Below are positions 9,523 to 29,659 of a stretch of DNA of 60,312 bases, piece after piece. The notes below the pieces were generated by a model. It did no database searches, was not told the origin of the DNA, and worked only from the letters and a program-made list of their open reading frames with translations. A program made the position numbers and the translations under genes. The stretch covers positions 1 to 60,312 of the forward strand of contig JAOTTS010000013.1 in assembly GCA_029864335.1 (NCBI GenBank), written 5' to 3'. Positions within the stretch are counted from its first letter, which is position 1, and each line of letters begins with the position of its first letter. Origin of the DNA: Candidatus Nitrosopumilus sp. (GTDB lineage Archaea > Thermoproteota > Nitrososphaeria > Nitrososphaerales > Nitrosopumilaceae).

Positions 9523-10227
9523 TTGTCTCAAAACGAAATTGAAGAATCATTAAACTTGTTAGAAAAAGATTGGGATGTTGACCCAATTTTACGTAAATTC
9601 ATGCTAGGAAAAATTACTGATGTATCTGACTATCTGCTCAAAGTCCGGGATGTAGTCTTTCATGTGCCATATCTTAATTCTGAGAAAAAATTCATTTTAT
9701 GGAAATGTTATTGGCCCGACTGTCACAACTGCTGCGACAGACAAGGAAGACTCCCACTAACATCAGATGATTTGATAATGATTGGAAAAGGTCTGAAATA
9801 TCAAAAACCTTCTGATTTTATAAAAAATGAAACTCTCACTGTAACGTATCAGGAACCTGGACCTACAGGGCAACTAACTATAATTACCACCATTAATCTG
9901 AAAAGAAAAAAAGATGAAACAGAAGCTGATGATGGAACTCACATCTCTTGTAGATTCTTAGATGAAAAGGGTGGGTGCAGCATGCATCCTGACAGACCTG
10001 GTGTATGCTATCTTTATCCATTTTCTAGCTGGCTTGAAAACGAAAAAGGTACAGCACGTGTTCATGCCACCTACCAGTTTACAGGAGATTGTCCTGGATT
10101 TTACTTGGCAGATACTCTGGATCCAATGAAAGATGAATTCAAGGACTATTCCAAAACAATTTATGATTACAACATGGCATCAAATAGAACCAATAGAGAA
10201 GGGTTTGGCTCTGTCAGTTTTAGTTAG
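9523..10227 (+). CDS. YkgJ/UPF0153-type cysteine-cluster protein
   Basis: 234 residues from a TTG start. Conserved cysteines fall in two groups: CYWPDCHNCCDRQG near residues 66-79 and CRFLDEKGGCSMHPDRPGVC near 145-164, followed by YLYPFSS. This CxxxC..CC / C(x8)C(x9)C arrangement is typical of the YkgJ family, thought to bind zinc or an iron-sulfur cluster. Substrate unknown. Its stop overlaps by four bases the stop of the convergent flavoprotein gene. Confidence 0.75.
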   Translation: MSQNEIEESLNLLEKDWDVDPILRKFMLGKITDVSDYLLKVRDVVFHVPYLNSEKKFILWKCYWPDCHNCCDRQGRLPLTSDDLIMIGKGLKYQKPSDFIKNETLTVTYQEPGPTGQLTIITTINLKRKKDETEADDGTHISCRFLDEKGGCSMHPDRPGVCYLYPFSSWLENEKGTARVHATYQFTGDCPGFYLADTLDPMKDEFKDYSKTIYDYNMASNRTNREGFGSVSFS

Positions 10228-11282
10228 GCCTTAGCTACTTTCATCAAGTCTGCAATTTTGATGTTCATTCCGAATCTATCTTCGTTCTTCTTCATGTAAC
10301 GAAATATTGCAATAAAATCTGGCAATGCCTTGAAGAAATTAAAGTCCTTGTGAATTTTTGCTCGAACGAAATTAAACACTTTAGCATATACTTTGTAGTG
10401 CTCCTCCACTGCTTTCTCATATGCTTTGAAATCATTCATGTTTTCTAGGAATATCTCAACGCACTGCATTGATGGAATGATTCCTTCACCTAAAAGTGCA
10501 TACACTGTTCCGATTGATTCGCCAACTCCAACTACTTTTCCTGAATAGTATGGTTTACATCTGTCTGGTGTTGCAAGTCTGATTGGTCTGCCCTTTGTTG
10601 CAATGACTTTGCCTCCGTGTTTTTGCAAAAATTCATCAGTTGCCTTTATGTGTTTTTTATTGTAATCCCCTGCTCCAATATGTGCCCATTTCTCTCCTAG
10701 TGGAAAATACCAAAAGTATCCAGACATTCCTGGAAACGGCTCTATGTAAAAGTCATCATAGGGAACGCCGTTTTCATATTCAATCTTATACTCGTATGTT
10801 GGTAAGAAGAAATCTTCCTTTAGCTTTGGCAGATAAACTCTGTTAAAGCCAGTACAATCAACTATCATGTCGTACTCTTTTTCTAGTTCTTCAAGTTTTG
10901 GAGCTTCACCATAAATTATCTTGGAATCTTTTATGAAATCTTTGATTAATCCTAATTTGTTATATGTGCACAATCCTTTCAATCCAATATCAAACTTTAC
11001 GTCATTGCTCATTTTGACATGCATGTTTTTACCATCATGAATTAGAAAGTCATTAAAGTCTCTGCCAGTCTTTTTGCAAAAATCTGCCAGTACTGGTTTT
11101 ATTGTTCCCCATGCACAAATCGAATCATGTTTCTCTTCAGTATTTCTTTCATAACCGACAACATTGTGTTCTGAATCCTTTAGTCTGGCCATGAGATAAG
11201 ATCCTGCAACACCCATTCCCATTACTGCAATCTTCAAGATGTCTTGCAATTTCCTTTTGCCTAATAAATACACTATCTGCAA
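10224..11282 (-). CDS. FAD-dependent oxidoreductase, geranylgeranyl-reductase-like
   Basis: 352 residues. An N-terminal Rossmann motif (IAVMGMGVAGSYLMARL, near residues 18-34) binds FAD; MIVDCTGFNR and VVGVGESIGTVYALLGEGI are the later GD-type FAD motifs of the geranylgeranyl reductase/FixC family. Such enzymes can saturate isoprenoid chains of archaeal lipids or quinones, so lipid or quinone reduction is inferred. The ATG at 11282 adds 15 residues before the Rossmann fold; a TTG at 11237 (LKIAVMG) may be the true start. Confidence 0.72.
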   Translation of the reverse strand: MQIVYLLGKRKLQDILKIAVMGMGVAGSYLMARLKDSEHNVVGYERNTEEKHDSICAWGTIKPVLADFCKKTGRDFNDFLIHDGKNMHVKMSNDVKFDIGLKGLCTYNKLGLIKDFIKDSKIIYGEAPKLEELEKEYDMIVDCTGFNRVYLPKLKEDFFLPTYEYKIEYENGVPYDDFYIEPFPGMSGYFWYFPLGEKWAHIGAGDYNKKHIKATDEFLQKHGGKVIATKGRPIRLATPDRCKPYYSGKVVGVGESIGTVYALLGEGIIPSMQCVEIFLENMNDFKAYEKAVEEHYKVYAKVFNFVRAKIHKDFNFFKALPDFIAIFRYMKKNEDRFGMNIKIADLMKVAKA

Positions 11283-25973: not shown

Positions 25974-26660
25974 ATGCAAAGAGATAGACTAACTGAATGG
26001 TTTGTTCCAAAATTTGGTTCTAGAAATTTTAGATTATCAATAGGAATTCTATTTTTACCCTATACTGGAATGATAATGTCATTTTCAATATTGGGATCTC
26101 TTTCAGTAGAATTTAGCCTTGTTCGATTAGTATCCATTTGTGTATTATATTTTTTTGCAATAGGTATATCTGCACATTGTCTTGATGCTTTAGGAAGTAA
26201 GAAAAAACCTTGGGGAGAAATATCCAAGTCAAAGCTTTGGCTTGCATCAATAATTTCTTTGATCATTGCTTTTTCAATTGGATTGTATTATGCGTTTTTA
26301 GATTCTTGGTTATTATTTCCAATAGGAATAATAGAAGGGTTTTTTCTTTTTGCATATAATCTAGAATTATTTCATGGTAAATTTCACAATAATATTTCAT
26401 TTGTAATCTCATGGGGAGTTTTACCAGTTCTTGCAGGATCTGTAATTCAATCAAATGCCATGTCCGTTGAAACCATATTATTTTCTATACTTGCAGGTAT
26501 TGTGAGCTATATTTTGATAATTACATCTAGAAAATACAAAGAATTAAGAAAACAAAATGCAAATTACCAAACATACCGTAAAAAGGAAATTCTTCTAAAG
26601 ATCACAAGTTCTGTCGTAATATTTGGCACAATTTTCTTGTTTGCTTTAAGATATATTTAA
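25974..26660 (+). CDS. Integral membrane protein, divergent UbiA-like prenyltransferase
   Basis: 228 residues with about seven transmembrane helices. The first cytoplasmic loop reads SAHCLDALGSKKKPWGEIS, near residues 69-87, in the place of the UbiA motif (ND..D...D..KP...G), with only one of the usual aspartates. A second loop near residues 180-195 is basic (SRKYKELRKQ). UbiA enzymes transfer a polyprenyl chain to an aromatic acceptor. The assignment is by weak motif, membrane layout and its neighbour, a chorismate-lyase-like gene 24 bases downstream. Catalytic competence is unproven. Confidence 0.45.
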   Translation: MQRDRLTEWFVPKFGSRNFRLSIGILFLPYTGMIMSFSILGSLSVEFSLVRLVSICVLYFFAIGISAHCLDALGSKKKPWGEISKSKLWLASIISLIIAFSIGLYYAFLDSWLLFPIGIIEGFFLFAYNLELFHGKFHNNISFVISWGVLPVLAGSVIQSNAMSVETILFSILAGIVSYILIITSRKYKELRKQNANYQTYRKKEILLKITSSVVIFGTIFLFALRYI

Positions 26661-26684
26661 TTCAGTTAAACAACAAAATATTGT

Positions 26685-27122
26685 ATGAATATGTCTTCAG
26701 AATATTTGTTACAGGGAATATTGGATGCCCCTGTAGGTCAAGTAGTCACTGTTCTTGGAGAGGTTCTTAACTGCAAAATACACCTACAAGTAGTAGAGCA
26801 AAATACTGTTGCACCAAATCACTTTGTGAGAAAGGTTGCAATTACTGCTCAGGGATTGCCAGTGATAAAAGCTGATGTGAAATTTGACTCTAGGATTTTA
26901 CCTGAATTTATCATGGCTGATCTATTAAAGAAAAAACGTGGTATTGGGACTATTCTTAATGTGAACGGCATCAATGCTACTAGAAATGTCATATCATTGA
27001 ATCGAAATCCAGATGAGAATAAGGTGACAAGAGAATATGAAATTATTCATAATGGAATAGTTTGGTTTACAATAACAGAAGAGATAAGACTAGGTAATCT
27101 TGATTCCTACAAGAATAGCTGA
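26685..27122 (+). CDS. Chorismate lyase-like protein (DUF98/UbiC fold)
   Basis: 145 residues. The order 'HFVRKVAITAQGLPVIKADV', 'SRILPEFIMADLLKKKRGIG', 'NATRNVISL' and a late acidic 'WFTITEEIRL' follows the chorismate-pyruvate lyase/UTRA-like fold. UbiC makes 4-hydroxybenzoate and pyruvate from chorismate; the conserved arginines and terminal glutamate have plausible counterparts here. It follows a UbiA-like gene by 24 bases, and its 3' end overlaps a convergent methyltransferase gene by 33 bases. Confidence 0.65.
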   Translation: MNMSSEYLLQGILDAPVGQVVTVLGEVLNCKIHLQVVEQNTVAPNHFVRKVAITAQGLPVIKADVKFDSRILPEFIMADLLKKKRGIGTILNVNGINATRNVISLNRNPDENKVTREYEIIHNGIVWFTITEEIRLGNLDSYKNS

Positions 27123-27695
27123 AGAGCCCCATGTCAAATCTTGCTTGTATGTCTTCATTCCATAATTCTTCATATCTTCTTCATATTCTCTTACCCAATT
27201 AGTATCTCTTATCATATGAGGTAGATCAATAAAGACCTGTTTCCAATTAGGGATAAAAAATCCTGCCAAAAAAAGCAGTTTAAAGTAAAAATTCCACATT
27301 TTTCGTACCAACCTATTTTTTGTATACGTGAAATCATGTAAAATTATTTTTCCACCCACATTAAGATGATCAATGCAGTTTTTAATCAAAACTTCATCTA
27401 TGCAATATTTTGGCAAATATGATGCAGTAATACAATCAAATTTTTCGTCTAGATCAAGTTTTTCAGCATCCTGGTTTACAAAAGAAATATTTTCATATAC
27501 AATTAATTTTTCCTTTGCTTTTTCAAGATAGTTTTGAGTAATATCGACACCTATTATTTTCACGTTTGGAATTTTTTCTACAATTTGTTTTGTTAGTATT
27601 ACTGTGCCCCAAGCAAGATCTAACACAGTTTTCTCAGTCAATAATTGTTCAATAATTTTATGTTTCCAAACATTGTCTCTTGCAAAAGTAGTCAA
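27090..27695 (-). CDS. Class I SAM methyltransferase, UbiE/MenG-like
   Basis: 201 residues. The SAM-binding motif I region is VLDLAWGTVILTKQIVEKIP (near residues 25-44); the glycine-rich signature is weakened by W for a glycine. Motif II/post I is IIGVDITQNYLEKAKEKL and motif III is FDCITASYLPKYCIDEVL, then HLNVGGKIILHDF. The layout and the C-terminal hydrophobic/aromatic half resemble UbiE/MenG quinone methyltransferases. Together with the two preceding genes it suggests quinone-like ring metabolism, but lipid or small-molecule methylation is possible. Confidence 0.65.
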   Translation of the reverse strand: MTTFARDNVWKHKIIEQLLTEKTVLDLAWGTVILTKQIVEKIPNVKIIGVDITQNYLEKAKEKLIVYENISFVNQDAEKLDLDEKFDCITASYLPKYCIDEVLIKNCIDHLNVGGKIILHDFTYTKNRLVRKMWNFYFKLLFLAGFFIPNWKQVFIDLPHMIRDTNWVREYEEDMKNYGMKTYKQDLTWGSSAILVGIKIT

Positions 27696-27700
27696 GTATA

Positions 27701-27832
27701 CTATTTTATCATAGGAATTAGCAGTGTTATTAAAAAATCTCGGAACAACATCTTTGGGATATTTTTTAAATGAAAAATTATTGAATCTTCAGTTCCTTCT
27801 TTGTTCTGAATTAGAACATAGGCTTTTATCAT
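27701..27832 (-). pseudogene. Truncated RAM-domain protein
   Basis: 43 residues: MIKAYVLIQNKEGTEDSIIF is the standard start of a stand-alone Lrp-type RAM domain, but after LKNIP the frame departs from the family and stops, giving just over half the usual 75-80 residues. It lies seven bases downstream of an intact RAM gene and six bases upstream of the methyltransferase gene, all on one strand. A decayed duplicate is likely. Confidence 0.45.
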
Positions 27833-27839
27833 GATATAT

Positions 27840-28079
27840 CTATGATTGTCCTGAAATCGTCATCAAGGTAAGAGTAGAACGTACATGCTCAAGTTTTCGA
27901 ATATTCTGAGTAATTGTTTTACTAATTTTTTCTCTTTCAAAATTCTCGATTTTAACAACAATATCAAATGCACCAAAAGTGCCATGAATTTCTTTTACAG
28001 AATCCATGTGCCTCAGTTTTTCAATCACATCCATCTCAGTACCAAGATTGCAATTAACTAAAACATAAGCAGTATGCAC
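27840..28079 (-). CDS. Stand-alone RAM (Lrp/AsnC effector) domain protein
   Basis: 79 residues with the RAM fold only: AYVLVNCNLGTEMDVIEKLR, VKEIHGTFGAFDIVVKIE, and VRSTLTLMTI. There is no helix-turn-helix. In Lrp proteins this domain binds amino acids and drives oligomerisation; single-domain forms are thought to modulate Lrp partners or sense metabolites. An intact partner regulator is at 39416. Confidence 0.85.
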   Translation of the reverse strand: MHTAYVLVNCNLGTEMDVIEKLRHMDSVKEIHGTFGAFDIVVKIENFEREKISKTITQNIRKLEHVRSTLTLMTISGQS

Positions 28080-29131: not shown

Positions 29132-29659
29132 TTATGATTCTTGTTCATTGACAACATGTAATGTCATACTAGTTTTGATGTTGGGTAATGTACGTATAGC
29201 TTTTATCAGAACATGCTCTAATGTAGTGTTATCAGAGGCCTCAATTTTACAAATAACATCATAAAACCCAAAAACCACATCAGCTTCTTTTACCTCAGGT
29301 ATGTGGCTAAGATTTTTCAATGTTGGATACTCTTCTCCCTTATCACAGTGAATCACCACATATGCTTGTACAAGATTTTGTCTAAGCATAGCTCCAATTA
29401 ATTTCTCAGATGCTTGAAATAATTCCCCTGATTCTGAACGAGTCAATGTTACTGTAGTGTGAATTTTTGGCATTTTACGTATAGTTCCAGTAACAATTTC
29501 CCGAATCTTCTCTTCAGAATCTGATTCCACTTGTACAATTACATCATAAAGTCCAAGCGTTACATGGGCTTCTTTTACACCATCGATTTTTTTCAGTGAA
29601 GTAATGACCTCTTTTTCAGAACCTAAATTACAGGTCATCATGACATATGCTTTTACCAT
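29132..29659 (-). CDS. Tandem double RAM-domain protein
   Basis: 175 residues built of two RAM domains with no helix-turn-helix. Copy 1 begins AYVMMTCNLGSEKEVITSLK (residues 4-23) and ends TTVTLTRSES; copy 2 begins AYVVIHCDKGEEYPTLKNL (near 98) and ends TSMTLHVV. Each carries the 'VKEA.V..G.YDVI..(I/V)E' core. A covalent dimer of the usual Lrp effector module is implied. It probably modulates amino-acid-responsive transcription; ligand unknown. Confidence 0.85.
   Translation of the reverse strand: MVKAYVMMTCNLGSEKEVITSLKKIDGVKEAHVTLGLYDVIVQVESDSEEKIREIVTGTIRKMPKIHTTVTLTRSESGELFQASEKLIGAMLRQNLVQAYVVIHCDKGEEYPTLKNLSHIPEVKEADVVFGFYDVICKIEASDNTTLEHVLIKAIRTLPNIKTSMTLHVVNEQES

Follow-up and report, generated by a model that had tools for sequence, protein, structure and literature searches.

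A UbiA-fold membrane protein with replaced Asp-rich motifs, linked to a UbiE-like methyltransferase and often to a DUF98 protein, in ammonia-oxidizing archaea

Gene content of the locus

The region studied is a 60,312-nucleotide stretch of DNA, hereafter called the window, which is part of an archaeal assembly of 1.95 Mb in 58 contigs; close relatives of this genome carry the names Nitrosopumilus and Nitrosarchaeum. Two genes lie on its forward strand, encoding a UbiA-fold membrane protein of 228 aa (25974-26660) and a DUF98/chorismate-lyase-like protein of 145 aa (26685-27122). They are met on the reverse strand by a convergent frame, probably a pseudogene, for a UbiE/MenG-like C-methyltransferase (27090-27764). 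A geranylgeranyl-reductase-like FAD protein, whose start codon is uncertain, is encoded 15 kb from this trio (10224-11282, reverse strand). The original prediction had described three neighbouring genes of the UbiA, UbiC and UbiE types. The families, the neighbourhood and the co-occurrence are borne out by Pfam, by fold comparison and by a survey of the order, but the methyltransferase is not the working 201-aa gene starting from a TTG that had been proposed.

The UbiA-fold membrane protein

Searched against Pfam UbiA, the window protein gives a superfamily match (E 7e-7) whose 29.3 bits remain below the cut-off of 34.2, while orthologs in two other genomes (G045 and G075) exceed it with 39 and 35.5 bits. 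A search of the PDB by sequence with the family profile returned nothing useful, and matches were obtained by fold comparison alone. The AlphaFold model, built from an alignment of 55 sequences, has a pLDDT of 93.4 and a pTM of 0.90. Its nine best rows in VIA all belong to the UbiA superfamily (Z 13.7-15.4, compared with about 11 for soluble prenyl synthases), as do the top 12 chains in Foldseek (best E 3e-3, prob 1.00); the superfamily includes AfUbiA (4tq6), ApUbiA (4od4), DGGGP synthase (7bpu/6m31) and MenA. Membership of the UbiA superfamily is thus confirmed at the level of the predicted fold.

The protein differs from the enzymes of the superfamily by its size (228 aa, eight predicted helices) and by a shorter motif-1 loop, and above all by its motifs. 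As the original prediction had noticed, the canonical aspartates are lacking: motif 1, NxxxDxxxD in UbiA enzymes, is replaced by AHxLDAxGxKxKPWG, and motif 3, the second Asp-rich motif, reads SRxYK, compared with PDHDAD in the MenA-like paralogs. The family therefore carries H68xxD71 and SRxYK, and the Mg2+/diphosphate ligands of canonical UbiA prenyltransferases are absent. Structure prediction, which had been suggested as a check of the active site, recovered the UbiA fold, and the alignment shows a different conserved set in place of the catalytic motifs. W9, H68, D71, W80, E131, H138 and Y188 are invariant in the 55 aligned sequences, and R5, E8, S185 and K189 nearly so. Since the fold is kept, both tests for catalytic motifs failed and the family has an invariant set of its own, we consider it a UbiA-fold protein under strong constraint of its own; judging from the alignment, the residues H68, D71, W80, E131, H138 and Y188 look like a new active site.

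Identity with canonical UbiA, MenA, heme O synthase or DGGGP synthase was rejected, as the corresponding NCBIfam equivalogs do not match the protein. Three canonical UbiA genes, two heme-O-synthase-like and one MenA-like, are found elsewhere in the genome. The hhalign comparison of the family profile with the MenA-like paralogs gave a probability of 94 over 216 columns, and that with the heme-O-synthase-like pair was negative. Decayed extra copies of the UbiA-like gene, with several stop codons, were seen in two genomes of family f47 (G243:C1:1196300-1196856 and G255:C6:50792-51175).

The DUF98 protein

Taken alone, the window protein gave no significant match in Pfam. Its orthologs from Nitrosocaldus and Nitrososphaerales exceed the cut-off of PF01947, the Rv2949c-like chorismate pyruvate-lyase family (33.3 and 28.9 bits against 22), and sequences of the Nitrosopumilaceae branch have diverged too far for this model. 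A profile of 7 sequences retrieved 2nwi (AF1396, a DUF98 structure) at E 2e-4; with 36 sequences the E-value fell to 2.6e-12, and 2nwi was the sole match up to E 10, with no match to the UTRA domain in that range. The model (pLDDT 91.8) matches 2nwi with a Z of 17.6 and E. coli chorismate lyase (UbiC, 1fw9) with 11.2; UTRA effector domains reach up to 12.5. The HMM searches and the modelled structure agree with the UbiC-like assignment made originally, and the chorismate lyase fold is confirmed on the predicted model.

Q39, R49, A63, G88, Y118 and E132 are invariant in the family. R49 and E132, conserved in 43 of 43 sequences, align with an Arg and a Glu of 2nwi and would be the counterparts of the catalytic residues of UbiC, which we take to be R76 and E155. 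The fold is common to the window family, AF1396 and UbiC, and the profile match with the invariant Arg and Glu connects the window family with AF1396; chorismate lyase is a candidate activity. In five genomes (G045, G075, G021, G387 and G408) DUF98-like genes occur apart from the UbiA-like gene, in its absence, or, in G408, in two copies, so DUF98 may also have an independent role.

The methyltransferase and its second copy

The open reading frame at 27090-27695 (reverse strand) matches Pfam UbiE/COQ5 (PF01209) with 58.9 bits, compared with 79.3 for the Nitrosocaldus ortholog of locus L115 (cut-off 20.1). Two intact orthologs match TIGR01934 over their full length with 104 and 108 bits, and a Nitrospirota methyltransferase (L168) reaches 117. 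The HMM search for UbiE/MenG thus succeeds with PF01209 and in the extent of the TIGR01934 match, but misses the TIGR01934 cut-off of 158. The MpqE identity (NF052510) was rejected, the scores of 64-103 bits being far under the cut-off of 335. Intact orthologs also share with UbiE/MenG the SAM motif I and the N-terminal FFxxTxxSYDK, and remain below both NCBIfam cut-offs.

In the window, homology to the family covers 27096-27764 (324.7 bits), so that the frame runs beyond 27695 to about 27764, a segment devoid of ATG, GTG or TTG. The N-terminal start reads CATTTAAAA, compared with CATGATTAAAG in an ortholog. SAM motif I reads LAWGTVIL instead of LACGTGIL, the two altered positions being shared by more than 93% of the other aligned sequences. 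These two features, the loss of the start codon and the GTG to GTV change in motif I, make the window copy probably a pseudogene; an error of sequencing or assembly could also account for them. Its dN/dS is about 0.23 to 0.35, synonymous change exceeding non-synonymous change, and any loss would therefore be recent. In genome G174 the ortholog has an in-frame TAG.

Upstream of the frame, translation in three frames revealed by eye an AsnC/Lrp-like N-terminal remnant (27765-27832, reverse strand, MIKAYVLIQNKEGTEDSI...), which resembles the start of the AsnC/Lrp ligand-binding domain; similar genes lie at 27840-28079 and 29132-29659.

A second, intact methyltransferase is present in the same assembly on another contig (C53:1305-1976). 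The locus to which it belongs (G000:C53:1305-2192, L137) is the mirror image of that of the window: the methyltransferase is accompanied by a truncated DUF98 gene with a TAG, and the UbiA-like gene is missing. This could be a partitioned duplicate or the contig of another strain. Contamination of the assembly is given as 3.47%, and the G+C content is the same (0.341 and 0.342). If C53 belongs to the organism, its methyltransferase could replace the probably dead local copy.

Linkage across the order

The distribution of the trio was surveyed in 250 genomes of the window's order (methyltransferase matches at E <= 1e-25, adjacency defined as within 2.5 kb). Among the matches listed, 143 genomes have the UbiA-like gene, 131 of them with the methyltransferase, and in 125 of these 131 the two genes are adjacent. 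DUF98 accompanies the UbiA-like gene in 78 genomes and adjoins it in 75. The Fisher p-values of co-occurrence are about 1e-46 for UbiA-like with methyltransferase and about 1e-19 for the other test of the set; neither takes shared ancestry into account, and they serve as an indication only. A better argument for linkage is that adjacency survives three arrangements: the methyltransferase lies upstream in the same direction in 69 of the 125 pairs, and the pairs are convergent in 28 and divergent in 28. The convergent position outside the operon, noted originally, is correct for the window but is one of three layouts in the order. Neighbourhood and co-occurrence go far beyond chance, and the link between the genes is stronger than could be known from the window.

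By family, the UbiA-like gene is present in the genomes of f2 and in the majority of those of f47, whereas f1, to which the window belongs, has it only patchily. The methyltransferase is missing from 12 of the genomes that carry it, and DUF98 from 65 of the 143, including the Nitrosocosmicus loci (L126 and L127), where adjacency is limited to the methyltransferase and the UbiA-like gene. At the level of loci, 80 of which were taken from named genomes, the family methyltransferase was found in 66 and DUF98 in 43. One branch of Nitrosopumilaceae (29 loci) has a cupin-like gene in the neighbour place of DUF98, upstream of and divergent to the UbiA-like gene; it never occurs together with an adjacent DUF98, and the methyltransferase is sometimes missing there. 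The cupin-like protein, of about 131 aa, is conserved (L083:7513-7908 and 28 other loci). On one contig labelled Planctomycetaceae (JAJDEI010000015.1, L066) we observed a trio with 72-91% identity to the Nitrosopumilus type, and this contig is therefore probably misbinned.

Isoprenoid neighbours and possible transfer to Nitrospirota

The original prediction had pointed to the reductase-like protein at 10224 as a possible partner, and isoprenoid genes do lie near the trio in some genomes. Three Nitrosopumilus loci (L060, L070 and L110) have a member of the same reductase family next to the trio, and one Nitrosocaldus locus (L118) has both a polyprenyl-synthase gene and a geranylgeranyl-reductase-like gene near it. 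The window protein has 86-88% and 37% identity to relatives near trios and scores 52 bits against TIGR02032, under the cut-off of 158.8; it may simply serve membrane lipids.

A similar layout has been published as cargo of ICE-2 of Ca. Nitrosocaldus cavascurensis, drawn with UbiC, UbiA, UbiE, GGPS, CHLP and RmlB (PMC5797428, Fig. 8). In the portion of that article consulted here, quinone words are confined to the figure legend, the cluster is drawn without a proposed function, and neither the loss of the Asp motifs nor the conservation of the trio across the order is mentioned. In both Nitrosocaldus loci (L115 and L118) the trio stands behind an ATPase gene, VirB4/VirD4-like by eye, in agreement with the published element, and an SDR epimerase gene lies between the methyltransferase and the UbiA-like gene; L076 and L078 have a member of the same SDR family close to their trio.

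Outside the archaea, the UbiA-like gene is present in 12 of 295 Nitrospirota genomes. In four of the loci read (L166, L168, L169 and L170) the methyltransferase adjoins it directly in convergent orientation, in two others (L159 and L165) it lies within about 2 kb, and no DUF98 was seen in the Nitrospirota loci read, where the UbiA-like gene persists. In the trees of both proteins (FastTree, midpoint-rooted) the Nitrospirota form one clade nested among archaeal sequences, which suggests that the pair moved from archaea into Nitrospirota. Methyl-plastoquinones are produced by Nitrospira bacteria (PMC12324825), which offers a lead limited to the Nitrospirota cases.

Menaquinone genes

Nitrosopumilus contains menaquinone, and the trio had been proposed as its route. 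We examined 23 genomes of ammonia oxidizers, both with and without the trio. PF02621 (MqnA/D family) occurs in each, along with a pair of UbiD genes and two or more canonical UbiA genes, including a MenA-like one, and 12 of the 23 lack the UbiA-like gene. The futalosine and MenA genes are thus independent of the trio. UbiD was also rejected as a partner of the trio, with its two copies in each genome tested and no correlation. One of the Nitrosocaldus UbiD genes is identified by TIGR03701 as a menaquinone biosynthesis decarboxylase (559 bits, cut-off 496) and adjoins MqnC, a partial protein with 412.6 bits against TIGR03699 (cut-off 428). As most genomes have a single PF02621 match, a complete futalosine pathway is putative here; futalosine enzymes of Thaumarchaeota have already been published (PMC3914697). 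No published account of any quinone besides menaquinone was found for these archaea in the literature searched.

Proposed function and alternatives

We tentatively favour, at a little less than an even chance, a conserved module of the order in which the UbiA-fold protein and the UbiE-like methyltransferase, often with DUF98, act on an aromatic isoprenoid, quinone-like compound of the membrane. In many lineages the DUF98 protein would supply a chorismate-derived ring, e.g. 4-hydroxybenzoate, formed by elimination of pyruvate. The UbiA-like protein might prenylate this substrate in a non-canonical step; alternatively, prenylation would fall to a canonical UbiA paralog, of which there are three, and the UbiA-like protein would act later. 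The ring would then be methylated by the UbiE-like SAM C-methyltransferase, working on the membrane compound together with the UbiA-fold protein and its rebuilt active site. Rather than the main menaquinone, the most likely product is an aromatic lipid or quinone of a secondary kind. The linkage of the genes across the order and in several Nitrospirota, the intact methyltransferases, R49 and E132 of DUF98 and the isoprenoid neighbours agree with such a module, and the missing Asp motifs, the genomes devoid of DUF98 or of the methyltransferase, and the cupin-like gene in the place of DUF98 oppose it. The simple series first proposed, from chorismate to 4-hydroxybenzoate, prenylation and methylation, is not supported as such, with a UbiA-like protein deprived of both metal/diphosphate motifs and many genomes lacking DUF98; for these same reasons we regard the UbiA-like protein and the methyltransferase as the functional core.

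A rather unlikely alternative, though one to be taken seriously, is that the UbiA-like protein is catalytically dead and serves as a carrier or scaffold, holding a prenylated intermediate (quinone or lipid) for the methyltransferase while the chemistry takes place elsewhere. Loss of the Asp motifs with retention of the fold and of the adjacent methyltransferase is what such a carrier would leave. However, the replaced positions are non-random, the six putative active-site residues being invariant in all 55 sequences, and the protein also occurs where there is no methyltransferase to serve. We find it somewhat harder still to believe that the target of the module is an isoprenoid lipid, or another small membrane molecule, unrelated to quinones, with DUF98 as a ligand-binding (UTRA-like) protein or acting on another substrate. 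The DUF98 fold is indeed also that of the effector-binding domain of GntR/HutC regulators, and the frequent absence of DUF98, like its exchange for the cupin in one branch, would fit; but its profile finds a DUF98 structure and not UTRA, no DNA-binding domain is present in the protein, and the methyltransferase is closest to UbiE/MenG. The DUF98 relatives whose function is known make 4-hydroxybenzoate, which is not known as an intermediate of menaquinone synthesis. That the trio makes or finishes archaeal menaquinone, for which the family names agree with the step types and the group is reported to contain menaquinone (Elling 2016, cited in PMC12324825), is very improbable, and this route was rejected in view of the independence of the futalosine and MenA genes in the 23 genomes and of the TIGR03701 decarboxylase beside MqnC.

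The aromatic-isoprenoid module could be extended to a horizontally transferred pathway common to ammonia-oxidizing archaea and a few Nitrospirota. Its product would be a benzoquinone or aromatic isoprenoid derived from chorismate that has so far escaped detection, and its UbiA-fold enzyme would dispense with the aspartates for Mg2+/diphosphate; we regard this extension as doubtful. If the module is what we propose, these abundant nitrifying archaea would possess, in addition to menaquinone, a second membrane compound, one derived from chorismate, and this would bear on the coupling of ammonia oxidation to electron transport. The known scope of the UbiA superfamily would be widened by a member whose active site has been rebuilt, and the patchy distribution of the trio in Nitrosopumilaceae provides natural with/without pairs for lipidomics.
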